A stretch of 64,000 nt of DNA. Source: Candidatus Kurthia intestinigallinarum (GTDB lineage Bacteria; Bacillota; Bacilli; Bacillales_A; Planococcaceae). Below the pieces are notes generated by a model. The model saw nothing but the letters and a program-made list of their open reading frames with translations. It was not told the DNA's origin and did not search any database. Below, one piece after another: positions 12,365 to 62,762 of this stretch. The position numbers and the translations under genes are program-made. Where the stretch lies: assembly GCF_003991225.1 (NCBI RefSeq), contig NZ_JTFC01000041.1, positions 62,001-126,000 on the forward strand, read 5' to 3'. Each line of letters starts with the position of its first letter. Position 1 is the stretch's first letter.

Positions 12365-12429
12365 ACAAAAAGACAGCATTCATCGTAAGTTTGTCTTTCG
12401 TACACCTATCCTCGTAGGCCGAATTGATT

Positions 12430-12590
12430 TTACGGCAGGTCTCCTGGCTTCGCGTCAACATTTCATTACACCTTCCCATCGTCTAGACAGTGGCATACGC
12501 AATGAAACTCAGCATCACAGTTGCGGGACAGCACTTGTTTTTCACAAGTTTCCCTTTTAAGCGAATAATTGATTATCCGCACCGTAAAAT
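12430..12590 (-). promoter_or_regulatory. Cobalamin riboswitch controlling cbiMNQO
   Basis: Read on the minus strand, the region carries the adenosylcobalamin aptamer landmarks in order: GGTGCGG at the 5' side, AAAAGGGAA, GCTGTCCCGCAACTGTGA with the conserved CCCGCAACTGT core, GATGGGAAGG, and the B12 box AGCCAGGAGACCTGCC near 12433-12448. With cobalamin bound, the following hairpin (12334-12364) should terminate transcription. Confidence 0.95.
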
Positions 12591-12772
12591 TGTATATAAT
12601 TTTTCGACATTTCGTAAAATAGCTTATCATTGTCGTGGGAATTTGCCAATAACAATTTTTATTTCAATTTATTTGAAATCAAAAAAACTGTATCAATACA
12701 GAGAAAATGCTGTGATTTCAAGCGATTTATGCGAATTTTCTTTTGTACTATAACATCATAGTAAAAAAAGAT

Positions 12773-12801: not shown

Positions 12802-12839
12802 GAAAATAAGATTTTTTAAAAACTAAATACTAACGATAC

Positions 12840-12995
12840 ATTTTAGAAGTGCCTCGTTGTGAGGATAATAGGGAAAATGGTGAGAAGCCATTACAGCCCC
12901 CGCTACTGTAAGAGTGTTGAGGTCATCAAATCCATTGGCTAAAGCTGAGAAGGGATGACGTCATAGACACTTGAGTCAGGAAACCTGCTTTTAAA
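12840..12995 (+). promoter_or_regulatory. Cobalamin riboswitch controlling the cbi biosynthesis operon
   Basis: A second, independent cobalamin aptamer on the plus strand. AGAAGTGCC and AATAGGGAA lead into the core with GAGAAGCC, CAGCCCCCGCTACTGTAA, GAGAAGGGATGACG and the B12 box GAGTCAGGAAACCTGC near 12973-12988. It is followed by a leader with a strong Shine-Dalgarno sequence and a terminator hairpin before cbiH60. Confidence 0.95.
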
Positions 12996-13026
12996 ATCGG
13001 ACAAAACTTTTCGGAGGGAGAAGCTT

Positions 13027-47563: not shown

Positions 47564-47579
47564 AAGGGGTGACGTGATA

Positions 47580-48470
47580 ATGGAATGGCATCATTTTCAT
47601 TATTTTAAAGTTTTAGCAGAGATGGAACATATGACGCGAGCAGCAGAGAAGCTTTCGGTATCACAACCAGCATTAAGCCGTGCTATTATGCGAATTGAAG
47701 AGGAATTGGATGTGTCATTATTTGATCGTAATGGCCGTTCCATTCGATTAAATAAATTTGGCGAGCTCTTTTTAGAAAGTACCAATCGCATCATTTTAGA
47801 AATGGAAACAGTCAAAACACGTTTGTCAGAAATGAGTGGTGTTGAAACCGGTGAGGTAACGCTTGGATTTCTTCATACGGTTGGTGCGACTTATTTATCG
47901 CTCTTTATGAAGCAATTCAAAGACACACATCCGAATGTGCGCGTGAAGCTCGTTCAAAACAATTCACAGGCACTCAAAAATTTATTAGCACAAGGTATTA
48001 TTGACCTATGTGTCACAACGCATGTAGCCACTGAAAAAAATATTGAATGGCAACCGCTATTAACAGAGGAATTATTTGTGACGTTGCCACGGACACACCG
48101 TTTCGCAGGGCGAGAAACATTGACCGTAAAAGAATTACAAGACGAAACGTTTATTTTATTAAAAGAAGGCTTTGCGCTTCGTCATTTATCAAATGATTTA
48201 TTGAAAGAAGCGGGCATCCAAGTAGCCATTAGCTTTGAAGGAGAAGAAGTTCAAACGATTGCAAGCTTCGTTGCAGCAAATCTCGGTATTTCATTTTTAC
48301 CAAAATTAACGCATTTAGCCTTTAATGATCTCGTGCAAATTCCGATTGAAGGAAAAAAAGCAGCGCGTCATATCGGCATTTGCTCAAATAAGGAAGTCGT
48401 CGAAACAGCTGTCGTGCGGGAAATGAAAGAGCAGCTTGTTCATTATTTTAAAGGGTTTCCAGAGCTGTAA
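47580..48470 (+). CDS. LysR-family transcriptional regulator
   Basis: A 296-residue LysR protein. The winged helix-turn-helix (about 1-60) reads M-T-R-A-A-E-K-L-S-V-S-Q-P-A-L-S-R-A-I-M-R-I-E, and a substrate-binding domain of about 205 residues follows. A GTG two codons earlier is in frame, but the ATG at 47580 has AAGGGGTG at best spacing. Target may be the divergent esterase gene or itself; no effector can be assigned. Confidence 0.9.
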   Translation: MEWHHFHYFKVLAEMEHMTRAAEKLSVSQPALSRAIMRIEEELDVSLFDRNGRSIRLNKFGELFLESTNRIILEMETVKTRLSEMSGVETGEVTLGFLHTVGATYLSLFMKQFKDTHPNVRVKLVQNNSQALKNLLAQGIIDLCVTTHVATEKNIEWQPLLTEELFVTLPRTHRFAGRETLTVKELQDETFILLKEGFALRHLSNDLLKEAGIQVAISFEGEEVQTIASFVAANLGISFLPKLTHLAFNDLVQIPIEGKKAARHIGICSNKEVVETAVVREMKEQLVHYFKGFPEL

Positions 48471-48625: not shown

Positions 48626-48811
48626 ATGAGTAAAAGTTTAAATACGCCAGAAGCCATTTTACTAACCGGCTCTTTTTTGATGGTTTTATACATTTTCGAT
48701 GAATTAGTGGAAGATTATCACGTACCATTTTTATGGCTTGTTTTTCCGCTTATTCTATTGGTCTTAGCGATTTTTTCATACGTTAAACGAGAGGCCACCG
48801 ATGACAAGTAG
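48626..48811 (+). CDS. Small two-helix membrane protein
   Basis: A 61-residue protein with hydrophobic segments at about 10-26 and 35-52 around an acidic turn (D-E-L-V-E-D) and a charged tail. GGGAGG precedes the ATG. No family recognised. A 141-bp repeat element follows it. Confidence 0.65.
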   Translation: MSKSLNTPEAILLTGSFLMVLYIFDELVEDYHVPFLWLVFPLILLVLAIFSYVKREATDDK

Positions 48812-48820
48812 ATACATACT

Positions 48821-48961
48821 AAAAAGAGGCTTTGACATACGTATAAAAACAACCGTTCCTATGAGCATAAGAAAAACCGGAATCGCGCTATAGTGCGGTT
48901 CCGGTTTTTCGTTGCGAACGCTAAAAAAGGAACATGACGTGTTTTATCCCAGCCTCTTTTT
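48821..48961 (+). repeat. Structured intergenic repeat, copy A (141 bp)
   Basis: Aligns without gaps to 61927-62067 with 11 differences in 141 bp (92 percent identity). The ends AAAAAGAGGCT and AGCCTCTTTTT are inverted. Inside is a strong hairpin with arms AAAAACCGGAA / TTCCGGTTTTT and a further 7-bp inner stem. It lies between a plus-strand small membrane protein gene and the convergent chemoreceptor gene and may also end both transcripts. Confidence 0.85.
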
Positions 48962-48968
48962 ACATATA

Positions 48969-50477
48969 TTAGCCGTTTAAAGTCGCAACTTGTGCGAGCT
49001 GTGTGCTCATTTCCTGAATATGCTCAACCGCTGTTGTGACAGAATCACTCAAGGCTTTTTGTGTAGATACAAGGGAATTAATACGGTCCATATGCATTAA
49101 AATCGTATCAATTTGCACTTTTAAATCGGTTAAACTTTGCTCAATATCTTCTGTAGCACCCGCACTATTTAGCGCTAGTTTACGCACTTGATCCGCAACG
49201 ACGGCAAAGCCTTTTCCTTGTTCACCCGCACGCGCAGATTCAATTGCGGCATTTAAGCCCAATAAATTCGTTTCATCTGCAATGCCACGAATCATCGATG
49301 AAATATTTTGGGTATTGTCCGCACGTTGATGAGCATCAATTGCGGCATTCGCTGATTGCTGCTGAGCATTCGTCAATTCGCCTACATGATTGTGCATATC
49401 CTGCATAGCATAGGTCATTTCATCAATGCTTGCATTTAATTGTTGAATGCCTGCTTTCATATGCTCTCCGCGTTCCTTTTCCTGACTTTCTAATGTAATA
49501 TCACGCATCACACCGACAATATGTTCCACGATGCCATTTGTATTACATGTAATAATAATCCGATTGCTCATCGCAATATAACGTCCGTAGCTATCTCGTA
49601 CGCGGTAAAGTAACTCGCATTGTGCTTTTCCGTTTTGCTTCGCTTCTCTAAAACATATTTTAAATATAGGATTTGTGCCATCGCGGTCTGTTGGATGGAT
49701 GAGATTTGCAAAATCCTTATACGTTTGTGGCTGTGTCGTTTTCGTATAACCAAAAGCTGTTAAAAATTGCTCTGAAAACCACACGGTATTTTGAACATCT
49801 GCTAAGTTTTGTGGATTTTTCACTTGGACATGCCAAGGTGATTCATACATGACTTCGGTAATTAATCCATGTTTTTCAAGTAGTTGCACTGAGCGCTGCT
49901 TTTCAATATGTTGAGCGGTTAGATCGTGAATGACGCCATAGCATTTACTAAGTTTTTGCTCCTTATAAAGAAGCTGAATATGACAATCGATATAGCGGAT
50001 TTCTCCCAGTGGTGTCACAAGGCGACATTGCTCTTCAATACGCTCTGCTGTTGTTTGAAGCGCAGTCGCGAGTGCATTTTTAATATGTACGACATCATCT
50101 TCATGAATAAAATGCATAATGGAACGCTTTGTATCATCGCCAAGCGTTCCTATTAGCGCTTTCAATTCATCGCTCATTATTAACTTTGTGTCCGTATGCA
50201 TCAAATCACCATGCATAACATCTGCAACCCAATAACCAATGTTTGCTGTATTACAAATTGTTGAAAATAACTGATCATGCTGTGCAAGGCGTTCATGCTG
50301 TTGTGTTATATAAGAAGTTAGTTTTTGAATAAGTTGTTGTTCGTGAGGAGAGAGGTGTTGAATCGCAGCGGTAAGGTTAAGGTTTCCACCCGCTTCGAGA
50401 TTTTCGACCAATGATTCGATAACGGCTAAAAGTGGAGAGGAACTAGCCTTTGCTGTTGTTTGTAAAAATGAGAACAT
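48969..50477 (-). CDS. Soluble PAS-domain methyl-accepting chemotaxis protein
   Basis: A 502-residue cytosolic chemoreceptor without membrane segments. An N-terminal helical part is followed by two PAS/PAC modules (about 68-195 and 200-330), then a short signalling domain (about 340-490). Its hairpin tip is [20 protein letters not shown]. The tip sequence contacts CheA and CheW. The bundle is short, as in Aer2-like or bis-PAS receptors; the signal could be redox or a small ligand. No che gene lies nearby. Confidence 0.88.
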
Positions 50478-50545
50478 ATTACCCCTCTTTTCTAAGTTTG
50501 TTTATGAATAATTTACTATATTTTGGCATAAAAAACAATAAAAGT

Positions 50546-51388
50546 TTAAAATTTTATCGATTTAAACCACGAAGGAATGATATGTTGAAAGCCATGGGGG
50601 TCCTGAATCATCTGCTCAACATGAGGCAACGTTGTTTGTAATTGGCCGATATTATCCGCCCAAATGATAGAAGAGAAGGCAAGCATACCGGCATATAGCG
50701 TGTAAAGTGTCCAAAAATCATCAGGCAAGTGGTGATCATAATAGCCTTCAAGTAATCCAATGCAAAAAGGAATGCTATGCTCTCTACTAAAGAGGCCGAG
50801 TTTTACAAAATCCCAAACCGGGTCACCCCAATCAAAGCGCCCAAAATCGATAACACCCGCGTAGTGGCGGTTATGAATAATTAAATTAGGCAAATGAAAA
50901 TCATCATGCTGTAAATGGGTAGGGCGCCCGTTTAATAAATGGAGATGTGCATTGATAAATTGCTCGACTGCAGGCATAAAATCATATGTGTACCCTCGTT
51001 CATGATACGTTTTTCGGTAACGCTCATATTTAGCTTTTTGATAGCTTGCCCATGTATTTTCCTTTGCTTTAATCGCATGAATGCGACGTAAATCAGCGCT
51101 TGCATCCACACCGACTTGATATTGCTCTGTCGCTGTAAGCGTGCCAATTGTATCCTCTGCATCCAATCCTTCTAAAAAGCTCGTTATCATATAATTTGGT
51201 CCAATTTCTAGCGGCTCATAGGTCTGTGTACCAGTAGAAAAAAGTTGCTGTAGCAATGAAAATTCCTGCTTTTTTTGTGTGTATTGCTGCGGATCAAATT
51301 GTCGATAAAGGCATTGTTTTTGCTCATAATGCACGAGCCATTTTTCTTCTCCAGAAAATCCTTTGGTTATTTTTTTGATTTTTTCCAT
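50546..51388 (-). CDS. Aminoglycoside phosphotransferase (APH) family kinase
   Basis: A 280-residue kinase-fold protein. The catalytic loop is L-Q-H-D-D-F-H-L-P-N (near 168-177), with aspartate and the metal-binding asparagine. The magnesium motif is V-I-D-F-G-R-F-D-W-G-D-P near 190. Such chromosomal APH-like proteins phosphorylate many small molecules; antibiotic resistance is not implied. Monocistronic. Confidence 0.85.
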   Translation of the reverse strand: MEKIKKITKGFSGEEKWLVHYEQKQCLYRQFDPQQYTQKKQEFSLLQQLFSTGTQTYEPLEIGPNYMITSFLEGLDAEDTIGTLTATEQYQVGVDASADLRRIHAIKAKENTWASYQKAKYERYRKTYHERGYTYDFMPAVEQFINAHLHLLNGRPTHLQHDDFHLPNLIIHNRHYAGVIDFGRFDWGDPVWDFVKLGLFSREHSIPFCIGLLEGYYDHHLPDDFWTLYTLYAGMLAFSSIIWADNIGQLQTTLPHVEQMIQDPHGFQHIIPSWFKSIKF

Positions 51389-51851
51389 GTCTACCCCCCG
51401 TTATCATTAAGTTGGTCTTATTCTAACGAGAATGATAAAGAAATTCAATAATTGAATAGTGGTTCATAAGGAATTAGCATTAAATGGAATATAAAATATA
51501 TGTCATACGGTATATTTTTTAGAAAAAAGCTACACAAAGTAGAAAAAATGAGTTAATATGTATAAGAACTAGCGAAAGTGGTTTTTTTATGGAGAAAACT
51601 CTACAGGCGTTATTAGGAAATGAAGCGGAAACATTTTCTATGCTCCTTTGCTAGTCAAATCCCTATTTTTAAATGCCTAACCAGTTGGGCGCTGGTGCTA
51701 GCCTAAGCAAAAACGTCCAATGCAATTTGTTACACGGTAAATCCCTTACCGCATACCAAACCTCTATCACAAAACAAAGGCGCCTTTTCCATGAGAAAGG
51801 GCGCTTTTGTTCCTGTTATAGAGAAAAAAACTGTTAAAGGAGGACACATAA
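51389..51851 (+). other. Unexplained 460-bp intergenic region with structured leader
   Basis: Between 51589 and 51811 three hairpins follow each other: ACCAG/CTGGT at 51680-51696, CGGTAA/TTACCG at 51735-51751, and a long imperfect stem at 51773-51811 (AACAAAGGCGCCTTTTC and partner). A 21-codon frame (51589-51654) precedes them without a good ribosome binding site. The block is visibly richer in G and C than its flanks and ends 41 bp before the next start codon. No known riboswitch class recognised. Confidence 0.45.
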
Positions 51852-52322
51852 ATGCAGCGGGAAATTTCTTTTGCCAATCTACAAACGCATTTACATAGTT
51901 GTTCTTTTACACAATTAAAAATGAATTGGATGCAATTAATTGAGGAGTTTTGTACGAATACAACAACCTTTGCCCTTCTTTGGAAAATGTCAGACCGTAC
52001 GCATTTTGAGCAATTACAGGGAAATGACTATTATTATGAGGTACATGATTTATATGCGCCCATGTCTGAAATTATCAAAATATTACAACAAATGAAATGG
52101 CAAGAACGTGGCTATGTACAAAATCTCGTAGAGTCACCAAGCGCGTATGAGGAGTTAATTCAATTAATTTTAAGCATGCTAGAATTTCGGGTAAACAATG
52201 CAGAGGCTGAAAAAGTACAACACCGTCTCCTCAAAGCGCATGTGCTCGAGCTCCAAGTAGAAGATGCCACCGTTAATGAATTACTAACACATGCCACAAC
52301 GTCGATTAAATACGTTCTTTAA
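51852..52322 (+). CDS. Protein of unknown function
   Basis: A 156-residue soluble, mostly helical protein with several aromatic residues (N-D-Y-Y-Y-E-V) and a Cys at 17 and 32. No family recognised. AAAGGAGGA precedes the ATG. It follows the structured region at 51589-51811 and ends at a terminator. Confidence 0.65.
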   Translation: MQREISFANLQTHLHSCSFTQLKMNWMQLIEEFCTNTTTFALLWKMSDRTHFEQLQGNDYYYEVHDLYAPMSEIIKILQQMKWQERGYVQNLVESPSAYEELIQLILSMLEFRVNNAEAEKVQHRLLKAHVLELQVEDATVNELLTHATTSIKYVL

Positions 52323-52335
52323 ATTCTAACAATAT

Positions 52336-52378
52336 AAAAAGCGCGTCTAACCATTTTATTCGTTAGACGTGCTTTTTT
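52336..52378. terminator. Bidirectional terminator
   Basis: AAAAAGCGCGTCTAAC / GTTAGACGTGCTTTTTT hairpin between convergent genes. Confidence 0.88.
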
Positions 52379-52389
52379 ATACGGATTTA

Positions 52390-52698
52390 TTAGCGATAGC
52401 TATTAATAAAATCAATTAAAGCTTCTTTTGGTTGATAGCCACCCGTTTTTGCAACTACTTCGCCGTCCTTCAATAACACTAATGTAGGTACAGACATTAC
52501 TTCATATTCACCTGCAGTAGCAGAGTTTTCTTCGACTTCTAATTTTACAATCGGCACATCAATTTCTTGTGCTAGTTCTTCTAACACAGGTGCTAACATT
52601 TTACACGGTCCACACCAAGTTGCCCAAAAATCAACAAGTACAAGCCCTGATTTTGTCTCTTCATAAAATGTTTGATCCGACGCATTCACAATTGCCAT
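52390..52698 (-). CDS. trxA: Thioredoxin
   Basis: A 102-residue thioredoxin with the active site W-C29-G-P-C32-K and the conserved cis-proline in S-V-P-T. Length and sequence match B. subtilis TrxA. Cytosolic disulfide reductant for ribonucleotide reductase and others. GGAGG precedes the ATG. Confidence 0.96.
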
Positions 52699-52792
52699 CG
52701 TTATAGCCTCCTTTAATATTGTCTTTATTTTAGCACGATATGTGTTTAATTACTGAAAGATAGGTTAATTATTTTATAAGGGGGAATCGAGT

Positions 52793-53005
52793 ATGATGAA
52801 ATTATTATGGATACCCATTGTGCTATATTTAGTCGCATTAGGGGTTTTTATTACAAGAGCAACGAGCCGAGGCACAGATGAAGGTGTTGCAGCTCAAATT
52901 TTAGCGGGACAAGGACTTGCTTTACCAGTATTCTTCTTTGCATTTTTATTTATTTGGTTCTTTAATCGTCGCAAAAAACGTCAAGACCATAAAAATAATG
53001 TTTAA
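52793..53005 (+). CDS. Small two-helix membrane protein
   Basis: A 70-residue protein with helices at about 4-22 and 42-60 and a basic C-terminal tail (R-R-K-K-R). GGGGGAA precedes the ATG. No family recognised. The next gene starts 14 bp after its stop, so both are one unit. Confidence 0.7.
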   Translation: MMKLLWIPIVLYLVALGVFITRATSRGTDEGVAAQILAGQGLALPVFFFAFLFIWFFNRRKKRQDHKNNV

Positions 53006-53019
53006 GGAGGTGTCAGCTT

Positions 53020-53259
53020 ATGAGTGACCGAATGAACAAGGAAGATAAGAAAAAAGATACGGATTTTAAGCGTATGGATAGCCCAGATCAAGTGAATTCA
53101 GATACAGAAAGTCTTTTTGATAAGGATGAGGAAATGATGTTCGTTGACCCGATTCCTGTAGAAGAACTAAATGAAAAAGTGAAAGATGAAAAACTGGAAA
53201 ATCGTGAGGATACGAAAAGCACGTCCTCAAGCTCAAAAAAATATAAGCATGATAAGTAA
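53020..53259 (+). CDS. Small highly charged protein
   Basis: A 79-residue hydrophilic protein, very rich in D, E and K, with low-complexity ends (a serine run near 72) and no hydrophobic core. Likely disordered. AAGGAGG precedes the ATG. Co-transcribed with the preceding membrane protein; function unknown. Confidence 0.65.
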   Translation: MSDRMNKEDKKKDTDFKRMDSPDQVNSDTESLFDKDEEMMFVDPIPVEELNEKVKDEKLENREDTKSTSSSSKKYKHDK

Positions 53260-53266
53260 ATTGTGC

Positions 53267-53303
53267 AAAAAAGCGTTCCCACTAAGGTGGGGCGCTTTTT
53301 TTT
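53267..53303 (+). terminator. Rho-independent terminator
   Basis: AAAAAAGCG-tt-CCCAC hairpin with its partner and a T-run. It separates the small-gene pair from the subtilase promoter. Confidence 0.88.
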
Positions 53304-53377
53304 AGAAAAAATTGCCCTATTGATGATAATTTTATCCGTATAATGACTTATCTTTTGTATTTTTACGAGAAAAATCA

Positions 53378-53407
53378 TTGACATTGATAATCATTTTCAA
53401 TTATGAT
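53378..53407 (+). promoter_or_regulatory. SigA promoter of the subtilase gene
   Basis: TTGACA at 53378-53383 and TATGAT at 53402-53407, 18-bp spacer. The first Fur box fills the spacer. Confidence 0.82.
53385..53399. promoter_or_regulatory. Fur box 1
   Basis: TGATAATCATTTTCA, one mismatch from the 7-1-7 Fur consensus, placed between the -35 and -10 boxes. Confidence 0.85.
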
Positions 53408-53423
53408 TCTTTTCGAGATAAAA

Positions 53424-53438
53424 TGAAAATGATTATCA
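53424..53438. promoter_or_regulatory. Fur box 2
   Basis: TGAAAATGATTATCA, the exact reverse complement of Fur box 1 and also one mismatch from consensus. It lies downstream of the expected transcription start, just before the ribosome binding site. Confidence 0.85.
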
Positions 53439-53454
53439 AAGGGAGTACATAGAA

Positions 53455-56400
53455 ATGATGAAAAAAACACTTGCAACGGCGGCAACAGTTGCCCTAACAG
53501 CATCAACAAGTTTACCAACAACATTATCAGCACAGGCAGAAACAACAGTAGAAACGACACAATTACTTGTTCAACATAAAGAAAATGCAGAAATTTCAAC
53601 AAAACAAGCGAAAGCATTGAACGCAGAAATTGTTTCTGAACATGATCAAACAACGGTTATCGACGTTGCCGTATCAGATGTAGATGAAGTAGTTGAAACA
53701 TTAGAAGCAGATAAAGATATTGAGTTTGTAGAAGAAAACAAAATTTATACAATTGCTGATGATACAGCAATGAATGATGAATTTTATACAAATCAATGGA
53801 ATTTAAAAGCGATTGATACAGAAAATGCTTGGAAACAAGCTGAAGACGCTTCAAAAGAAGGTGTAACAGTCGCAGTTTTAGATACTGGTGTGAAAGCAAC
53901 ACATACAGATTTAGCAGGTCGTGTACTTGAAGGTGCAACATTTGTTGACAGTGCAGCAGACAATAAAACAGGTAACGATGACCAAGGTCACGGAACATTT
54001 GTATCAGGTATTATTGCTGCCAATGCGAATAATGAAAAAGGGATTGCGGGTGTCGCTGGGAAAGAGGATGTCACAATTTTACCTGTAAAAGTGATGGCAA
54101 AAAATGGTGAAGGAACAGCAAATGATATCGCTGAGGGGATTCGTTATGCGATTGACCAAAAAGTAGACGTTATTAATATGAGTCTTTCAGGTGAATACAG
54201 TGAAGCAATCGATACAGCCGTACAGGAAGCTGCACAAGCAGGCATCGTTGTTGTAGCTGCTTCAGGTAATGGCGGTGGGAATGCAGATACAAATTACCCT
54301 GCAGCACTTGATAATGTACTTTCGGTTGGTTCTGTATCCAAATCAGACCAAGTTTATGCTGGCTCGAACACAGGTGAAACAGTCGATTTAGTTGCACCAG
54401 GTGTTGGGGTAGTGAGTACATCACTTGCTGGTGACCTAGGGGACGAAACGGGTTATTATACGACAGGCACTGGGACATCTTATGCGGCACCACACGTCGC
54501 AGCAGTTGCCGCTTTATACAAAGCACAGCATAAAGATGCCTCTGCAAATGAAGTGTCAGAAGTATTAACAAAAACAGCGACAGACCTAAATACAGAAGGC
54601 CATGATAGAGAAACAGGTTACGGTAAAGTAAATGCCGCAAAAGCATTAGAAAATAATGTCTCAATCGATGCCTTCACTGTAAACGCGCCGAAGAAAAACG
54701 CGGATGTTATTGGCGTGACACCTATCAGTGTGTCAACAGCAAATGATGCGGTACAAACAATGAGCGTATTTGTCGGTGATAAAGAAGTAGCAACAGGTAC
54801 AGTAAAAGATCATCAATTCACAAGCTCATTTGATACAACGGCATTTGCAGACGGCGATTACACGGTAACAGTGAAAGCCTATGATAAAGATGGCGTAGAA
54901 TTAGATGCATCAGAGCGTACAATTCATATTAAAAACGCGCCAGTTTCAGGCTATATGTTTAGTGTTCAATCACCAAACGGTAATGTAGCAAAAGGTGCGA
55001 CAGTGAAGCTATACGAAAAAGACGATGAAGGTCATTATTCAGAGCTTTGGACAGGCGGTACGGATAATGCAGGCGCTGTACGTGTACCAAGCTATGTCGG
55101 CACAGATTTAAAAGATGTGCGTGTTGTTGTACAAGGTAAATTTGACGACGCAGAAGGCAAAAACTCATGGTTCATGTATTCTCGTGAATTAAATACAACA
55201 GGTGCAATTACATTAACAAGCGATGATACACAAAAAGTAGCACTTGAAACAACAGGTAAAGACGGCAAAGGCATCGACGGCGCGCAATACTTCATTACAA
55301 TGAAAGATGATGAAGGAAATACAGTCGGTGAAATGACAGACATTAATAAACTAGGTGCTAGCGAAAGCCCAACCGTTTATTTAGATAAAGGCGCGTACAA
55401 CATTTTTGCTTATGCAAAACAAGATGGCGATACGTATTTCTTATCTAAAACAGATGAAAAAATCACAGCACCCGGAAGTCTGACATTTGATACAGCACAA
55501 GCAGGCCAAATCACTGTGAATAACGATAATGGGAAATTAGAAAATGCGGTGTTATATGTTTATAACGATGCAATGAACGAAGCATTTGGTGAAGGAATCG
55601 CAACAGGCCGTAATTTCTATGTAACACCTGGTGACTACCAATACTTAATCGACGCTGAAGTGGCAGATGATACGAATGATGGTAAAGGAAACTGGATTTA
55701 TTCATTCGCTGAAACAACAAAAGCAACCGTTAAAACAGGAGAAACAACAAAACTACAAGCTGGCGGTCAAGTCGATATGACATTAGAAGCAGACCAAGAA
55801 GCAGTCGCACGTTATGCTAAACAACGTAATGTAGCGTATATTGAGCGTGATAATGCCAATGATGCCTATAAAGCGGATCAAGCCTTCTATACAAAACAAA
55901 TGTTTAGCGATGCATACGGGAACCAATTAGTAGGGATGAAACGTGGCTCATTAACAGAGGAAGATGCGCTTTACAAAAAAGATGTGGAAACAGGAAAAAC
56001 CGAAATCAAAGCAGATGACGAAGAATGGAAAATCGAATCAAAAGATTTCGGTAATATTTATGCAAACTATAACATCAAGCGTAATAGTGACGGCAAAGTC
56101 TTATTAGATAGTGATACGAAAAATGCTACAAACCCTGCCAATCGTATGTATTATATGTATTCATTTATCGTTTTAACATCTGTAGAGTATACACAAGGTA
56201 CGTATGATATTACGGTATCAGCGAAACCGAGCCCATTAACACGTCAGGCTGCAGATGCAACAAAAGGTCTTGAAAAAACCTTAACGATGAATTTAGTGGA
56301 TTCTGGCGCAACATTAGCGCTAAAAGATGCAGAGGGTGCCAATGTCGCCACGTATACAACATTATTACGCGCTGAAAAAGATGAAAATGGCAATATTGAA

Positions 56401-58368
56401 TGGAATCAATACTATAACCGTAACTCAGATAGCACGAAAGTATTAAATATTCCAGACAATTTAAAAACAAGTAGCTTAGAAGGCGGAAATATCGCCATCA
56501 TCCGCTATAATGTACCAAATTCAGGCGGGAAATTCGGCTTTATCTATCGTCAATTTGACGAATTGTCAGATTTACAGCAAGATATTACAATTCCAGAAAA
56601 TATGACAGAAGTGACGGTTGATCCAAAAGATGGCGACCAAGCGATGAATAATATTTCGACGAAGCTATTAATGATTAAGAAGAAGGTAACTGTAGACGGT
56701 CAAGAAGCGTATCCAACAGCGAATACACTACAAGTGTACAAACATAGCTCTGTCTTTTTAGAAGCAGAAAAAGATAATGGTTATGTTATCGAAGGGAATT
56801 ATGTGACATTACCAGATGCAGAAGGGAAGCAAGATAACTACTATTTCTTAAATGATAAAGTGACTGTAGATGATACAGAAGGTGCGAATAACACCGTAAC
56901 ATTCAACAAACAAGATTTAGCACAAGTGAAAATTAAAGCAGATACAGAAGGATTTAAAGATTTCCGCGGGGCAATTTTATATCCTTATAATAAATATAGC
57001 GATTCATTCACGGCGACATTACGTACAGGTCATAACTTCTATGTACCAGCCGATTTAAAAATGAATATGCAAGTACGTCTTGGCTTTGGTGATACGGAAA
57101 ACAACAATAAAATTTGGAATTACTACTTCTCAAAAGGAACGCAAAGCTTTACAACAGGCGATGTATCTACTTGGAAAGTTGGCGGTCAGTTAACAACAGA
57201 GGTTGAGTTACCAAAAACAACATATAAAGCAGGCGAAGAAGTAAGTGCTTCAGCGCATATTAATGATGCGTATGGCAACCAATTATCCTCTGTATTAGTT
57301 AATCAAACAAATGACTACACAATTGCAGATGAAGAAGAGCAAGGTTCATATGTTCTTCGTAATGGCCAAGTGTCGTATGAAGTAGCGCATGGTAGTGAAA
57401 CACACGCCGCTGTATCTGGTAGCGTGAAACCAGTTGCTTCTATTATAGATGCAGAGGGGAATGTTGTATCAAAAGCTTCAGATGAAATGTTCTACAACCA
57501 TATTCATGGTCTAAATGCACCAACACAAGCAGGCGATTATACATTACAGCTTGCGATTGCAGGTAGCCCATTAGGTGCTGTGAAATCAGCAACTAAATTC
57601 AAGGTAGCAGCATCCACTGTCATTGTGCCACCAGTAGCACCGACGCCAAATGCACAAGTTTCGGGTAAAACAGGTGTAATCACAGGTAAAACAACACCAG
57701 GTGCAACAGTAGTTGTGAAAGTCGGGAATAAAGTAATTGGTGAAGCGACGGCAAATGAAGCGGGTAACTTTACAATTAAGGTACCGAAACAAGCTGCGGA
57801 TACAAAGCTAACACTTATTGCATCTAAAGACGGTAAAGAAACAGTAACAACAATTACAGTAATAGACAAAACAGCACCAAAAGTAACGTCTGTCAAAGCA
57901 TCAAATAAAACCAATAAGATTGTTGTCAAAACAGAAAAAGGTGCCACAATTAAGCTAACAGTTGGCGGCAAAACATATACGAAAAAAGCCAATAAAGATG
58001 GTGAATACACGTTCACAATTAAAAACTTAAAAGGCAATGCAAAATGGCGTATGACTGTAACGGACACGGCGGGTAATGAAACGAAAAAAACAGGTAAAGT
58101 AGTCGATGCCGTAGCACCAGCAAAACCAAAAGTAACTACAAAGGTAAAATCATCGACAAAAACAATTAAAGGCACAGCAGAAGCAGGTTCACGCGTTTAC
58201 TTATACAAACATAGTAAAGTCATCGCAACTGCGAAGACAGATAAAAAAGGAAACTACGTACTGCGTCTACCAAAACAAAAAGCAGCAACAACACTTTATG
58301 TAAAAGCGAAAGATTCATCAAGCAATTATTCAAAAGGTACAAAAATTATTGTAGCAAAATCAAAATAA
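53455..58368 (+). CDS. Large secreted subtilisin-like protease with Ig-like C-terminal repeats
   Basis: A 1637-residue secreted S8 serine protease. Signal peptide about 1-28 (A-Q-A cleavage), inhibitor-I9 propeptide about 35-100. The catalytic domain (about 110-395) has D143 in V-L-D-T-G, H179 in G-H-G-T, N272 as oxyanion residue and S342 in G-T-S-Y-A-A-P. A long strand-rich region (about 400-1400) follows, with possibly two related halves (V-L-Y-V-Y-N and I-L-Y-P-Y-N segments). Three bacterial Ig-like (Big_6) repeats close it (about 1400-1637). No LPxTG, so release or non-covalent wall binding. Two Fur boxes imply induction by iron shortage. Confidence 0.92.
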   Translation: MMKKTLATAATVALTASTSLPTTLSAQAETTVETTQLLVQHKENAEISTKQAKALNAEIVSEHDQTTVIDVAVSDVDEVVETLEADKDIEFVEENKIYTIADDTAMNDEFYTNQWNLKAIDTENAWKQAEDASKEGVTVAVLDTGVKATHTDLAGRVLEGATFVDSAADNKTGNDDQGHGTFVSGIIAANANNEKGIAGVAGKEDVTILPVKVMAKNGEGTANDIAEGIRYAIDQKVDVINMSLSGEYSEAIDTAVQEAAQAGIVVVAASGNGGGNADTNYPAALDNVLSVGSVSKSDQVYAGSNTGETVDLVAPGVGVVSTSLAGDLGDETGYYTTGTGTSYAAPHVAAVAALYKAQHKDASANEVSEVLTKTATDLNTEGHDRETGYGKVNAAKALENNVSIDAFTVNAPKKNADVIGVTPISVSTANDAVQTMSVFVGDKEVATGTVKDHQFTSSFDTTAFADGDYTVTVKAYDKDGVELDASERTIHIKNAPVSGYMFSVQSPNGNVAKGATVKLYEKDDEGHYSELWTGGTDNAGAVRVPSYVGTDLKDVRVVVQGKFDDAEGKNSWFMYSRELNTTGAITLTSDDTQKVALETTGKDGKGIDGAQYFITMKDDEGNTVGEMTDINKLGASESPTVYLDKGAYNIFAYAKQDGDTYFLSKTDEKITAPGSLTFDTAQAGQITVNNDNGKLENAVLYVYNDAMNEAFGEGIATGRNFYVTPGDYQYLIDAEVADDTNDGKGNWIYSFAETTKATVKTGETTKLQAGGQVDMTLEADQEAVARYAKQRNVAYIERDNANDAYKADQAFYTKQMFSDAYGNQLVGMKRGSLTEEDALYKKDVETGKTEIKADDEEWKIESKDFGNIYANYNIKRNSDGKVLLDSDTKNATNPANRMYYMYSFIVLTSVEYTQGTYDITVSAKPSPLTRQAADATKGLEKTLTMNLVDSGATLALKDAEGANVATYTTLLRAEKDENGNIEWNQYYNRNSDSTKVLNIPDNLKTSSLEGGNIAIIRYNVPNSGGKFGFIYRQFDELSDLQQDITIPENMTEVTVDPKDGDQAMNNISTKLLMIKKKVTVDGQEAYPTANTLQVYKHSSVFLEAEKDNGYVIEGNYVTLPDAEGKQDNYYFLNDKVTVDDTEGANNTVTFNKQDLAQVKIKADTEGFKDFRGAILYPYNKYSDSFTATLRTGHNFYVPADLKMNMQVRLGFGDTENNNKIWNYYFSKGTQSFTTGDVSTWKVGGQLTTEVELPKTTYKAGEEVSASAHINDAYGNQLSSVLVNQTNDYTIADEEEQGSYVLRNGQVSYEVAHGSETHAAVSGSVKPVASIIDAEGNVVSKASDEMFYNHIHGLNAPTQAGDYTLQLAIAGSPLGAVKSATKFKVAASTVIVPPVAPTPNAQVSGKTGVITGKTTPGATVVVKVGNKVIGEATANEAGNFTIKVPKQAADTKLTLIASKDGKETVTTITVIDKTAPKVTSVKASNKTNKIVVKTEKGATIKLTVGGKTYTKKANKDGEYTFTIKNLKGNAKWRMTVTDTAGNETKKTGKVVDAVAPAKPKVTTKVKSSTKTIKGTAEAGSRVYLYKHSKVIATAKTDKKGNYVLRLPKQKAATTLYVKAKDSSSNYSKGTKIIVAKSK

Positions 58369-58373
58369 CTGAT

Positions 58374-58414
58374 AAAAAAGCCGGAGTCACTGGATAAGTG
58401 ATCCCGGCTTTTTT
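58374..58414. terminator. Bidirectional terminator
   Basis: AAAAAAGCCGGAGTCACT paired with AGTGATCCCGGCTTTTTT between the subtilase and the convergent lipase-like gene. Confidence 0.9.
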
Positions 58415-59223
58415 TAGTATTGTTTTTCAATCCAGTCAATCGCTTCCGTAATTACCGCATCTTTGTCTACCTCATTAAAAATTTCATGCATTAAATGGGC
58501 ATAAATTTTAAGTGATTTATTTGTAGAATGAATATCACCAAAAAACATGCGTGAATCTTCTTCACTGACAAGGCCATCATCTGTACCATGTAGTAAAAAC
58601 ACAGGGTCTACAAATTGTGCGTGTGCTTCTTTTAACCAGTCCACCCCTTCGCCAAATACGTGATTAATAAGGTCAACGGAAATTTTTTTCTCAACAAGCG
58701 GGTCCTCCGTATAGGCTTTTGCAACAGCTGGGTCACTGCAGACGCCATCACCTAATTCATTCGCAAAATATGTGCCCATACCATCTAGTGGTAGCTCACC
58801 CACAAGCTTCGTATTATAACGAGTTAGCGCTCCAGAAAGCACAAAGCCATTTACCGTACCAGGATATTTTGTGCCATAGGCGGCTGAGGCAAAGCCACCC
58901 ATACTATGACCAATAAGGAATAGCGGGAGTTGCGGGTTTTCTGATTTTGCTTTGTTGACGATCGTGCGCACATCCTCGATAATATCGTGGAAATCTTTAT
59001 AAAAAACGCGCTGCCCTTCACTACGGCCATGACCTCGGTGGTCGAAGCGATAGACGACAAAATTCTTATCAAGTAATTTTTTGGTTACATAATCATAGCG
59101 ACCCGCATGTTCACAAAGTCCATGAACAATTACAATGGTTGCTTGCGGGGTACTTGCTGGCTCATCCTTTCTAAAATAAAGATTGATGCCATCAAAAGTT
59201 GTAATTGTCGTTTCATGAAACAT
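58414..59223 (-). CDS. Monoacylglycerol-lipase-like alpha/beta hydrolase
   Basis: A 269-residue serine hydrolase of the Hydrolase_4 (monoglyceride lipase/lysophospholipase) family. H-G-L-C-E-H-A-G-R-Y near residue 34 is the family oxyanion motif. The nucleophile is in G-H-S-M-G-G near 107-112, the acid in H-G-T-D-D-G near 212, and the base in H-L-M-H-E near 242. No signal peptide. GGAGTG precedes the ATG. Confidence 0.88.
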   Translation of the reverse strand: MFHETTITTFDGINLYFRKDEPASTPQATIVIVHGLCEHAGRYDYVTKKLLDKNFVVYRFDHRGHGRSEGQRVFYKDFHDIIEDVRTIVNKAKSENPQLPLFLIGHSMGGFASAAYGTKYPGTVNGFVLSGALTRYNTKLVGELPLDGMGTYFANELGDGVCSDPAVAKAYTEDPLVEKKISVDLINHVFGEGVDWLKEAHAQFVDPVFLLHGTDDGLVSEEDSRMFFGDIHSTNKSLKIYAHLMHEIFNEVDKDAVITEAIDWIEKQY

Positions 59224-59329
59224 ATCATCACTCCTATCTAGTTATCAGTACCCGAGCTAGCATAGGCTAAAGCATAAATGGTTTAATTTTTACATGAATT
59301 GGAAAGAGAACAGCAAGGAGCTGATAAAC

Positions 59330-60244
59330 ATGAAGGTAATTGGATTTGAGACGTATGGAGATGCATCGGTACTAGAGGAGCGCGATATCGAGGTACCTGT
59401 GCCAAAAGAAAAGCAAGTATTGGTTGAAACGCTTTATACAGCGGTGAATGTATATGATGTTGAGGTGCGTCGCGGCGATTTTGCGGATACGCCATTACCA
59501 CAATTTTATGTGCTAGGAAATGAGGTTGTAGGGCGAATTGTTGCAGTAGGGCAAGCTGTCACAGCATTTTCAATAGGTGATGTCGTAATTGCGAAAACGG
59601 CACGCAATGGCTACGGTGAATATGTGGCAGCTGGCCAGAGCCATACGTTTTTAAAGCCTGAACATTTAACGACAGCACAGGCTGCGAGCTTTTCGCATAC
59701 GGCTGTCACAGCTTACTGGGCACTGCATGGCTTTGCAAAAGCACAGCAGGGTGAAACGGTCGCTATTTTAGGCGCTTCGGGAAGCGTGGGTAGCTTCGCT
59801 ATTCAATTAGCAAAGGAAATGGGTTTACATGTTATTGCGGTCGCGAGTGCGCGCAATGAGGCGTATGTGCGCGGGCTCGGTGCAGATGATTTTGTCGATT
59901 ATCACCAGGATGAAGCTGCCTTTGACGGGATAGCGGATATTATTATTGATGCGTCCTTACTTGGTAAAGGAGGACAATCGGGTATTCGCTATGCAAAGGA
60001 TGGTGCACGCTTTGTTGGTCTCACAGGCTTACCAGATACAATGCGCTCAGTTCAACTTATAGATGGACAGCGTACAAAAGATATGACCGACAAGGAAGCG
60101 ATGGATGCACTTATCGATCTGCCGCTTCAAGTACGTGAGCCTGTAGTTTTACCATTTACAGCAACCGGTGCGCGTGAAGCACATGACATGTTGGTGGCAG
60201 GTAACCATGACGGCAAGGTGTTACTTCAGGTGCGCGAATCCTAA
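59330..60244 (+). CDS. Quinone oxidoreductase-like, zinc-free medium-chain dehydrogenase
   Basis: A 304-residue NADPH-dependent oxidoreductase of the medium-chain superfamily. The GroES-like part (1 to about 115) lacks the zinc-site cysteines. The nucleotide fold starts with L-G-A-S-G-S-V-G-S near 144. An earlier in-frame ATG has no ribosome binding site; 59330 follows AAGGAG. Likely a quinone or enone reductase; substrate unknown. Confidence 0.85.
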   Translation: MKVIGFETYGDASVLEERDIEVPVPKEKQVLVETLYTAVNVYDVEVRRGDFADTPLPQFYVLGNEVVGRIVAVGQAVTAFSIGDVVIAKTARNGYGEYVAAGQSHTFLKPEHLTTAQAASFSHTAVTAYWALHGFAKAQQGETVAILGASGSVGSFAIQLAKEMGLHVIAVASARNEAYVRGLGADDFVDYHQDEAAFDGIADIIIDASLLGKGGQSGIRYAKDGARFVGLTGLPDTMRSVQLIDGQRTKDMTDKEAMDALIDLPLQVREPVVLPFTATGAREAHDMLVAGNHDGKVLLQVRES

Positions 60245-60356
60245 AAATTGTATGAATTATGACTTAATTTGCAACAAACACACACATCGCCTTGCACAAG
60301 CGACGTGACATCGTTAAACTTACGTCAGAAAAAAATGCAAGAAAGCTGTGTGAGAG

Positions 60357-61676
60357 ATGGAGTTCGTTGTTTTTGGATTATTTGCATGTAGCTTATTGCT
60401 TTGTGTCGCATTCAATCAATCGATTTTGCTGGCACTTGCGTTTGGCTATATGCTCTTTTTTATGTATGGCTTAAAAAAAGGACATGCTGTACATGAGATG
60501 CTGCGCTTTTCATGGCAAGGCATTCGTCAAATTAAAGGCATGTTATTTATTTTTATCCTTATCGGCATGATGACCGGTATTTGGCGTGCAGCCGGTACCA
60601 TTCCAATGATTATTGATGTTGCAACGGGATTCCTTGTGCCGGCTATTTTTATTATTGTCGTCTTTTTACTCAATTGCCTTGTATCCGTTTTAACGGGTAC
60701 TGCCTTCGGTACTGTGGCAACGATTGGTGTTATTTGTATGACAATCGGCAATGTAATGGGGGAAAACCCCTTATTTGTTGCGGGTGCGATTTTATCAGGT
60801 ATTTACTTTGGCGACCGTTGTTCACCGATGTCGACAAGTGCGCTGCTTGTCTGCGAATTGACGCATATGAAATTATTTGAGCATATTCGCCAAATGATTA
60901 AAACAGCAGCCATTCCATTTGCGCTAACGAGTGTGATTTATATCGTATTAGGCTTCATTCATACGCCAGAGGCAAAAACTACGCATGTTACAGCTATTTT
61001 CGATGATAGCTTTGTGTTAAATGGCTATACGTTAATACCAGCTGCCCTTATTTTTGTGTTGCTGCTATTGAAAATAAAAATTAAACAAACAATGCTCATT
61101 AGTATTCTGTCAGGAATTATTATTTGTTTTGTTGTTCAGAAAATGTCGTTCACTGATATTGCAGCAACACTTTGGAGTGGCTATATCGCAGATAATCTAC
61201 AATTAGGTGCGATGCTTGATGGTGGAGGCATTCTATCGATGGTGAATGTTATCGCTATCATTTGCCTATCATCGTCCTACTTTGGAATTTTCAATGGCAC
61301 AAATATGCTAGAGAGCATTCAGCATAGTGTAGAGGCATTGGCACATAAAACGACCAATTTCTTTACGGGAACGATTGTAGCGATTGTAGCGGTCATGATT
61401 TCATGTAATCAGACGCTCGCCGTTATGTTAACCTATCAATTAAATAAAGACATTTATCATGATGATAAAAAAACAGCGAGTATGCTAGCGGATACGGCAA
61501 TTGTCATCCCACCACTTGTACCGTGGTCTATTGCCTGTGCAGTGCCATTAGCGGCTGTTGATGCACCAGTAACAAGTATTTTATTTGCATGTTATTTATA
61601 CTTATTACCGCTTGCTGGAATCATTCGTTCATTTTATATGAAAAAGCATGCAATACCCGCATTGAAGCCACTGTAA
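60357..61676 (+). CDS. Na+/H+ antiporter, NhaC family
   Basis: A 439-residue membrane protein with about 11 hydrophobic segments. NhaC features include G-I-W-R-A-A-G-T-I-P near 75, the L-T-G-T-A-F-G-T segment near 111 and F-G-D-R-C-S-P-M-S-T near 150. Antiport of sodium, or an organic substrate pair such as malate/lactate as in MleN, is the family role. The ribosome binding site is weak (GTGAGAG). A CATCGC/GCGACG hairpin lies 50 bp upstream. Confidence 0.87.
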   Translation: MEFVVFGLFACSLLLCVAFNQSILLALAFGYMLFFMYGLKKGHAVHEMLRFSWQGIRQIKGMLFIFILIGMMTGIWRAAGTIPMIIDVATGFLVPAIFIIVVFLLNCLVSVLTGTAFGTVATIGVICMTIGNVMGENPLFVAGAILSGIYFGDRCSPMSTSALLVCELTHMKLFEHIRQMIKTAAIPFALTSVIYIVLGFIHTPEAKTTHVTAIFDDSFVLNGYTLIPAALIFVLLLLKIKIKQTMLISILSGIIICFVVQKMSFTDIAATLWSGYIADNLQLGAMLDGGGILSMVNVIAIICLSSSYFGIFNGTNMLESIQHSVEALAHKTTNFFTGTIVAIVAVMISCNQTLAVMLTYQLNKDIYHDDKKTASMLADTAIVIPPLVPWSIACAVPLAAVDAPVTSILFACYLYLLPLAGIIRSFYMKKHAIPALKPL

Positions 61677-61730
61677 ATCGTTTGTCATTTTCATTATCTT
61701 TAGTACAATAGAAAACGATGAGGTGACAAC

Positions 61731-61922
61731 ATGAAGAACAAGAAATTTTTAAATTCACTTGGCCTAATTATGCTTATTATTTTTGGTGGTAATTTTGTTG
61801 TGAATTATATCCGCCACGATCAATTTGGTACGGTAGAATTAATCGGTGGTATTATCGGCATCGTTTTATTATTAATTGGAGGCATTGTTATTAAAAATGA
61901 TGCACCGAATAAGGAACGATAG
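61731..61922 (+). CDS. Small two-helix membrane protein
   Basis: A 63-residue protein with helices at about 8-26 and 35-54 and charged ends. GAGGTG precedes the ATG. No family recognised. A repeat element follows directly, as with the small membrane protein at 48626. Confidence 0.65.
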   Translation: MKNKKFLNSLGLIMLIIFGGNFVVNYIRHDQFGTVELIGGIIGIVLLLIGGIVIKNDAPNKER

Positions 61923-61926
61923 CACA

Positions 61927-62067
61927 AAAAAGAGGCTGGGATATACGTATAAAAACGACCGTTCATATGAGCATAAGAAAAACCGGAATCGCGCTGTAGC
62001 GTGGTTCCGGTTTTTCGTTGCGAACACTAAAAAAGGAAGATGACGTGTTTTGTCCCAGCCTCTTTTT
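61927..62067 (+). repeat. Structured intergenic repeat, copy B (141 bp)
   Basis: The better-preserved copy: the outer stem AAAAAGAGGCTGGGA pairs perfectly over 15 bp with TCCCAGCCTCTTTTT. The inner hairpin is AAAAACCGGAA / TTCCGGTTTTT topped by a 7-bp stem. It lies between convergent ends, like copy A. Confidence 0.85.
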
Positions 62068-62072
62068 GTATT

Positions 62073-62762
62073 TTAACGCCAAACATAATATTCCCCGTGC
62101 CCATCAATTTCTCTTAAAATTTTCTCCGAGATGATTTCACCTTGATAGATAGAATCTACATGCAAATGTGTATCAAATAGATTATTGTAGACGTGATATA
62201 GAGGCTGTTCCATACTATTAGTCTGCAATAAGTGAAGCAGTTCTTCTTTTAGGGCGGGCGGAAATTGATTCGCTACATGCGTATGGAAAATGATAATTTG
62301 AGTGTTTTCCTGCAGTGCCTTTTTTAGAAGGAGAGGCAATAGTGGTCTGAAGTCTCCTTCTATTAATTGACTCTTAACATGCCTATTTAATTGAATCGCT
62401 GTTTTTAGATTTTCTTTGCGCTGCGTTAATTCAGGCCATATTAGACATTCAAGCCATAAAGCTTGTTCCTCATCCTGTGTATCGACAATGGAAAGAGGAG
62501 GTAGTGTGCTTAATGGATTACCTAAATTTTTTGCATAGATTTTTAGAGGACTATTAAATTGTCCAAACTGAATGGGTGGTTGCTGTTCAATATGATAATG
62601 AAAGTGTTCGAGATTCAATAAGAGTCCGGCACTTGTTCCAATTTCAATGATTGCTAAAGGCTTTAGAGATTTTGCAGCGATTCCACAAAAAGAACCGATC
62701 GTGATTGCATTGTCATCATCGCTAGCATCGACATTTATTTTATCGATATTACATCGTTTCAC
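62073..62762 (-). pseudogene. DUF2332 family protein, 5' part deleted
   Basis: The frame gives 229 residues, of which about 206 (from S-F-C-G-I-A on) match the DUF2332 family. The core I-E-I-G-T-S-A-G-L, the C-L-I-W-P-E segment, F-H-T-H-V-A-N-Q and the terminal D-G-H-G-E-Y-Y-V-W are all present. Family members are about 330-350 residues, so the first 120 or so are missing. The first 23 residues here are out-of-frame LysR sequence. No ribosome binding site precedes the ATG. The function of the family is not settled. Confidence 0.8.

Follow-up and report, generated by a model that had tools for sequence, protein, structure and literature searches.

The staphylococcal elements IS1272 and TnSha1, both of the insertion sequence (IS) family IS1182, insert into hairpins, several of which are confirmed terminators, according to the sections of the published account that deal with their targets (PMC4923244). 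The same sections describe a blunt, partial loss of the hairpin with no duplication, and insertion sometimes twice per target and in both orientations. The DNA analysed here, referred to as the window, is a stretch of 64,000 nucleotides from Candidatus Kurthia intestinigallinarum (assembly GCF_003991225.1, contig NZ_JTFC01000041.1, positions 62,001 to 126,000). It contains two copies, A and B, of a 141 bp structured repeat, which on its sequence is best read as a miniature inverted-repeat transposable element (MITE), non-autonomous, rather than as a two-copy RNA. Very probably this is a MITE with IS1182-family tips that inserts into terminator hairpins and brings its own two-way terminator. 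The repeat family, its tips and its position, the terminator-like sequences at its empty sites, the conservation of its hairpin and the covariation in the lower part of the stem are established here.

Distribution and structure of the element

There are at least 148 distinct copies in the genome to which the window belongs, approximately one per 27 kb of the 3.93-Mb draft. This number is a lower bound, obtained with a covariance model built from 31 copies of eight genomes; 150 rows were scored in this genome and two reverse-strand echoes (C180:2361 minus and C57:43763 plus) were dropped. In a DNA search of the same genome, 40 of 181 candidates were scored and all 40 match over nearly the full length. 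The element is present in all eight Kurthia genomes examined, with at least 150 rows in its own genome, 144 in K. huakuii (G003), 106 in K. massiliensis (G005), 84 in K. gibsonii (G002), and 40, 20, 8 and 5 in the rest, K. senegalensis (G006) and K. zopfii (G007) being among the coded genomes (E≤0.001, echoes kept). A 21-base core pattern, sought in one genome per species, was found in at least 78 stretches. All of those listed are from Kurthia, and other genera may hold the element. Plasmid and phage records gave no match to it at E 1e-5.

The terminal inverted repeats are GAGGCTGGGACA and TGTCCCAGCCTC, decayed or variant in many copies, and the distance between the tips is 111. In about half of the 148 copies, including copy A, GGCTTTGACA replaces GGCTGGGACA in the left terminal repeat (alignment positions 18–19), which breaks the outer pairing. 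Alignment columns gapped in more than half of the copies were excluded. Searches of the literature on Kurthia, on IS1182 and IS1272, and on MITE, repeat and terminator topics showed no paper on this element among the entries listed, though one may exist, and a text search for the tip letters returned no title concerning a bacterial dispersed repeat.

Position relative to genes

The copies lie close to the ends of genes. On gene orientations from a simple, crude open reading frame (ORF) caller applied to a draft genome, convergent genes flank 104 of the 148, tandem genes 42 and divergent genes 2; two of the 42 overlap a called ORF. The baseline in the window is 12 convergent pairs out of 64 neighbouring pairs by a similar ORF rule, the two copy-bearing pairs included (Fisher p 3e-12). 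In the convergent set the element lies a median of 5 bp from each stop codon, and in 76 of the 104 copies neither stop is more than 20 bp away. For the tandem set the medians are 7 bp from the upstream stop and 123 bp from the start of the following gene. The tandem copies also show an orientation bias, with the upstream gene reading the plus strand of the element in 29 and the minus strand in 13 (p 0.02).

Filled and empty sites

Convergent sites with both genes within 20 bp were eligible for comparison between species (76 sites). The comparison with K. huakuii and K. senegalensis took the first 22 of them in list order; its flank search scored 40 of 155 candidates in the former and 40 of 103 in the latter. 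In K. huakuii, 11 sites are anchored on two sides and empty, 6 hold the element, 2 are anchored on one side (L019 and L003) and 3 are without clear assignment (L007, L028 and L080). An A-tract, a hairpin and a T-tract occupy the gap at all 11 of the two-sided empty sites, and the same arrangement is found at L019, which is copy A, and at L003. In K. senegalensis, 5 out of 5 two-sided empty sites have a hairpin, as do 2 more with a weak right anchor. The sequences of the empty-site hairpins vary between sites, those of L006, L003 and L019 starting with GAGGC like the tip of the element. At the copy A site in K. huakuii, the LysR-type regulator and chemotaxis genes converge around AAAAAAAGAGGCGGATTGC...GCAGTCCGCCTCTTTTT.

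With both stops no more than 20 bp away in 76 of the 104 convergent copies, the element has taken over the place of the old hairpin and has not displaced it sideways. The element, as judged from these sites, takes the place of predicted terminators. All 11 two-sided empty sites have a hairpin that is absent from the corresponding filled site, as expected of insertion with loss of the target. No target-site duplication was noticed in the flanks at these sites, which were read by eye and not scored. Three of the six sites that are filled in both genomes have the element in opposite orientations (L005, L016 and L081), which points to separate insertions into the same putative terminator. Together with the IS1182 tips described below, the filled and empty sites support the mobility that an earlier note on this DNA, made from the letters of the window, had raised.

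Copy B (L001) lies in a 3.1-kb block that is 98% identical to K. huakuii (L031); the other matched flanks are approximately 68–92% identical, short IS-tip matches aside. At L057 in K. senegalensis, compared with L003 and L184 of the own genome, the left flank of one is joined to the right flank of the other with the element reversed, a possible rearrangement between copies. The K. senegalensis site that corresponds to L140 holds an IS1182 remnant (L060) instead of the MITE.

Relationship to IS1182

Among the matches listed from other genera, just the last 21–24 bases of the element match. In two of these (L045 and L055) the same tip precedes a transposase gene of the IS1182 family (NCBIfam NF033551, E 6e-106 and 2e-102). 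In genome G026, five pairs of inverted exact tips, 1,793 bases apart, enclose five IS1182 genes. The own genome has seven IS1182 transposase matches (NF033551), all of them fragments at contig ends, as is expected for a multi-copy IS in a draft. The tips of the MITE match those of an autonomous-type element of the same genome, although that element is seen in pieces only.

The junctions of the resident IS1182 could be read at three left ends (L062, L386 and L387) and six right ends (L058, L061 and L382–L385). The two IS ends agree over the 12-base tip and differ immediately inward of it. The left end of the MITE continues ATA.GTA.AAA like the right end of the IS, scoring 16 against IS right and 11 against IS left. 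Its right end continues AAAAC, with the first 16 bases common to IS left and 12 common to IS right.

The exact 16-base motif is present in 34 of 299 genomes of the class, while the reversed control is found in none. When nine genomes of other genera were searched for IS1182, the motif was beside IS1182 genes by coordinates in five, there was a fragment elsewhere in one, and three had no match. The statement in the earlier note that such repeats have no agreed role can be narrowed on these five of nine genomes, part of the repeats being explained as IS1182 ends. One class of the dispersed GAGGCTGGGA repeats in Bacilli is accounted for in this way, as IS1182 ends and MITEs with the same tips, and not all of them. 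That every GAGGCTGGGACA repeat derives from IS1182 was rejected, given the three of nine genomes with no IS1182 match and the different repeat of genus g45. In that genus (family f26, mostly genomes of 2.0–2.2 Mb; L343–L351) there are exact AGAGGCTGGGACAAAA motifs, up to 46 per genome and none in some members; two of the three genomes with no IS1182 match belong to g45 and have 45 and 46 motifs, and the g45 motifs sit at a different repeat.

Two further arrangements of tips were seen. In the left flank of L007 some 26 bases that resemble a left tip of IS1182 adjoin the start of the MITE, the arrangement to be expected had one element landed in another. At L388 (~925–965; G000:C175, ~149,940) a short hairpin with little beyond two tips, AAAAGAGGCTAGGA TTTTG TCCCAGCCTCTTTTT, is found beside a gene end. 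This is perhaps an internally deleted element that is still terminator-like.

Conservation of the inner hairpin

The inner hairpin is much better conserved than the rest of the element. With 11 alignment positions that vary between subfamilies excluded, the lower inner stem has an identity of 0.98 over all copies. In the quarter whose arms have decayed furthest (mean 0.76) it is 0.977, and the terminal repeats are at 0.78. None of the 148 copies falls below 0.8 identity in the lower stem, compared with 30 in the terminal repeats and 19 in the arms. On the tree, the changes per site are 4.9 for the whole inner stem, 11.1 for the unpaired parts and 15.3 for the terminal repeats.

Covariation was assessed against shuffles that ignore the relatedness of the copies. 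The lower stem has 14 cells in which both partners have changed and still pair, where the shuffles average 0.34 and reach at most 4; four of the 14 are one A-U to G-C change. The upper six pairs have 7 such cells (mean 3.6, maximum 10), with 58 of 500 shuffles pairing as well. The outer stem has 42 (mean 34, maximum 47), with only 5 of 500 shuffles pairing as well. Selection on RNA pairing, suggested by the earlier note from changes in the upper six pairs, is thus supported for the lower inner stem, not for the upper pairs, and not clearly for the outer stem.

On either strand, T makes up at least four of the six positions that follow the stem in every one of the 148 copies; in 144 of them the hairpin folds below -10 kcal/mol on both strands (A/T base removed). 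These features suggest that the inner hairpin is by design a two-way terminator and under selection. It probably terminates transcription in the cell.

The plus-strand hairpin is the more stable in 131 of the 148 copies and the minus-strand hairpin in 13, with a mean difference of 4.1 kcal/mol, to which a common U-G pair contributes. Raw cells without this pair, 69–84, include 81 G-U (plus-type wobble) and 39 A-C (minus-type). Counts of C>T and G>A on the tree are 70 and 50 in the stem and 104 and 116 in the unpaired parts. The earlier note had argued that pairing is kept in a plus-strand RNA alone. At the window copies G-U pairs do preserve it; across the family the argument is weak, with a tree bias of 70:50 and a hairpin and T-tract on both strands. 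Selection acting solely on the plus strand was not adopted. The data are read as a mild plus-strand preference, in agreement with the orientation bias of the tandem copies, and as no proof of a plus-strand RNA.

The two copies in the window

Copies A and B are the only full-length matches within the 64-kb window. The features of the two loci are as follows.

47574..48470, plus strand: LysR-type regulator gene; K. huakuii has this gene converging directly on the chemotaxis gene, a hairpin lying between the two.
48626..48811, plus strand: 61-aa ORF whose end lies 9 bp ahead of copy A; without a Pfam family.
48821..48961, plus strand: copy A of the 141 bp MITE with flanking A-tract and T-tract; element proper ~48826-48956.
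48826..48837, plus strand: copy A left terminal repeat, the TT-for-GG variant.
48871..48910, plus strand: copy A inner 18-bp hairpin, A-tract 48872-48876, T-tract 48905-48909; by design a putative two-way intrinsic terminator (locus L019).
48945..48956, plus strand: copy A right terminal repeat.
48969..50477, minus strand: methyl-accepting chemotaxis protein gene, convergent, its end adjoining copy A.
61731..61922, plus strand: 63-aa ORF whose end lies 4 bp ahead of copy B; without a Pfam family.
61927..62067, plus strand: copy B of the MITE; element proper ~61932-62062.
61932..61943, plus strand: copy B left terminal repeat; the left end of the family is similar to the resident IS1182 at its right end.
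61977..62016, plus strand: copy B inner 18-bp hairpin, A-tract 61978-61982, T-tract 62011-62015; by design a putative two-way intrinsic terminator (locus L001).
62051..62062, plus strand: copy B right terminal repeat; the first 16 bases of the family right end are common to the left end of the resident IS1182.
62073..62762, minus strand: DUF2332 gene, convergent, its end adjoining copy B.

A recount agrees with the earlier description of two gapless 141 bp copies differing at 11 positions, both flanked by convergent gene ends, and the perfect 15-bp outer stem of copy B is present if the A/T tract is included. The left arm of copy A has TT instead of GG. Compared with shuffled sequences, folding gives z values of -7.4 and -6.0 for the two strands of copy A and -9.3 and -9.0 for those of copy B. 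The inner stem had been described as 7 bp, CGCGCTA/TAGTGCG, but these arms are contiguous and have no loop, so that the last two pairs cannot form; the inner hairpin that does form has an 18-bp stem (GAAAAACCGGAATCGCGC) and a loop of 4 nt. Three changes between the copies had been placed in that stem. Two of them are in pairs, where G-U in the plus strand keeps the pairing, and the third is in the loop.

The element is non-coding, the ORFs of at least 50 aa that touch copy B (51 and 55 aa) crossing its border. A gene for a small protein, described as a membrane protein in the earlier note, precedes each window copy, yet the association looks coincidental. Across the 296 sides examined, 228 proteins of at least 50 aa end at a copy, of which 11 are of 70 aa or less. 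There are 33 similar pairs among the 228, and the two small proteins of the window are not among the 25 of these pairs that were inspected. A Pfam search with the 61-aa and 63-aa products gave no match up to E 0.1. The small membrane protein as part of a unit with the repeat was rejected on the flanking-protein comparison.

Elsewhere in the window are back-to-back cobalamin riboswitches at 12417-12601 (minus strand) and 12830-13006 (plus strand), with E 5e-28 and 4.5e-26, and a 1,637-aa ORF at 53455-58368 on the plus strand. From its letters the latter presumably encodes a secreted subtilisin-type protease with repeated domains.

Proposed mechanism and alternatives

An IS1182-type transposase would move the MITE in trans. 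Its targets would be intrinsic-terminator hairpins that closely follow genes, most of them in convergent pairs. The hairpin of the host would be lost and the host A-tract and T-tract would remain as the flanks of the element, with insertion and hairpin loss probably a single event. The strong hairpin of the element, preceded by an A-tract and followed by a T-tract, would still stop transcription from both sides. As the element carries its own two-way stop signal, the cell appears to lose little on insertion. Following insertion, selection would keep the hairpin while the terminal repeats and arms decay. More tentatively, with chances put a little below even, the transposase may make a like-for-like swap, recognising a terminator hairpin, removing it at its base and inserting the element with its replacement terminator in one step. 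If true, the swap would let the element occupy a large share of convergent terminators at little cost, with the host then selecting the new terminator.

Several observations weigh against insertion into terminator hairpins by a MITE that brings its own terminator. The 22 sites compared mostly carry top-scoring copies, which are probably young, and this makes empty sites more frequent among them. The conservation of the hairpin is possibly inflated, the copies having been found with a model that contains it. At the copy A site in K. huakuii the region of the 61-aa ORF is missing too, so that the two genomes do not differ there by the element alone. The own draft genome showed no complete IS1182. 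Over 32 bases the right end of the MITE scores 10 against IS right and 7 against IS left, because the similarity to IS left stops after 16 bases. A consensus terminator scanner found none in copy A or B; the same scanner also missed the plain hairpin of K. huakuii L222, used as a control, and seems blind to hairpins whose A- and T-tracts pair, though its negative result still counts against the reading.

The earlier note had proposed a transcribed functional RNA, either a small RNA or a cis-regulator, read from the plus strand. The greater stability of the plus-strand hairpin in 131 of 148 copies, the reading of that strand from the upstream gene in 29 of 42 tandem copies (p 0.02) and the compensatory changes in the lower inner stem fit such an RNA. 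On the other hand, the strand bias on the tree is just 70:50, no flanking gene is common to the copies (33 similar pairs among 228 proteins), and the stop-codon position together with hairpin replacement already accounts for the pairing. Neither window copy has an Rfam match at the gathering score, at which the window matches are only the two cobalamin riboswitches; below that score the best around copy B has E 0.11 and the others at least 0.57. A functional RNA is thus very improbable as the explanation.

A neutral MITE that survives best between convergent genes, where terminators are usually present anyway, would need no hairpin targeting. In Streptococcus pneumoniae, the repeats RUP and SPRITE, IS elements and, slightly, BOX are described as overrepresented between convergent genes in the part of the report that covers their positions (PMC3049150). 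The old hairpin is gone from the Kurthia sites, however, with stops within 20 bp in 76 of 104 convergent copies and a K. huakuii hairpin at each of the 11 two-sided empty sites. The sections cited above also report that IS1272, likewise an IS1182-family member, targets hairpins and deletes part of them (PMC4923244). Neutral survival is unlikely on these points, though less so than the functional RNA. The least credible alternative, at barely any probability, is a standard terminator spread by gene conversion or vertical descent without transposition. Its even length and near-invariant hairpin would agree with this, as would the many rows in K. huakuii (144), K. massiliensis (106) and K. gibsonii (84), but the tips are those of the resident IS1182, sites filled in one species are empty in another, and three of the six shared sites are oppositely oriented.

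Comparison with known systems

Read as a MITE with its own terminator, a structured repeat that had no explanation becomes a case open to test, in which a mobile element keeps the damage low by supplying a substitute for whatever it destroys. The filled and empty sites of Kurthia are a natural experiment on terminators and on the choice of hairpins by IS1182 transposases. A caution also follows, in that stability and covariation in a dispersed repeat may stem from a transposon-borne terminator and not necessarily from a regulatory RNA.

Like other bacterial MITEs, as characterised in passages of PMC10969869 and of the BrickBuilt report (PMC4596501), the Kurthia element is small, has terminal inverted repeats, folds as RNA and is often intergenic. 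In the BrickBuilt_5 example given there the native terminator is described as undisrupted (PMC4596501), whereas the filled Kurthia sites are without the native hairpin. SPRITE of S. pneumoniae resembles it in being a short, dispersed, terminator-like repeat enriched between convergent genes and near gene 3' ends (PMC3049150, in the part that describes it). It is set apart by that same description, with 30 copies in one genome, tips of only AAAA/TTTT, and no IS partner or easily comparable empty site found (PMC3049150). The Kurthia element, unlike SPRITE as portrayed in that part, has an IS partner, empty sites and a replaced hairpin.

The IS1182-family elements of related genera (L045 and L055) share the tip GAGGCTGGGACA with a hairpin just inside it; unlike the Kurthia element, they code a transposase between their ends. 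The agreement with IS1272 and TnSha1, so far as the cited sections describe them, extends to the target, the loss of the hairpin and the reuse of targets in both orientations. IS1272 codes its own transposase and TnSha1 also carries fabI, according to those sections, whereas the Kurthia element codes nothing seen and is approximately 131 bp. It further differs from what is described there in being present at at least 148 sites in one genome and in having its own central two-way terminator, as predicted from its hairpin. Hairpin targeting is already known, as reported for IS1272, and what is new is a high-copy MITE that would supply a terminator of its own.

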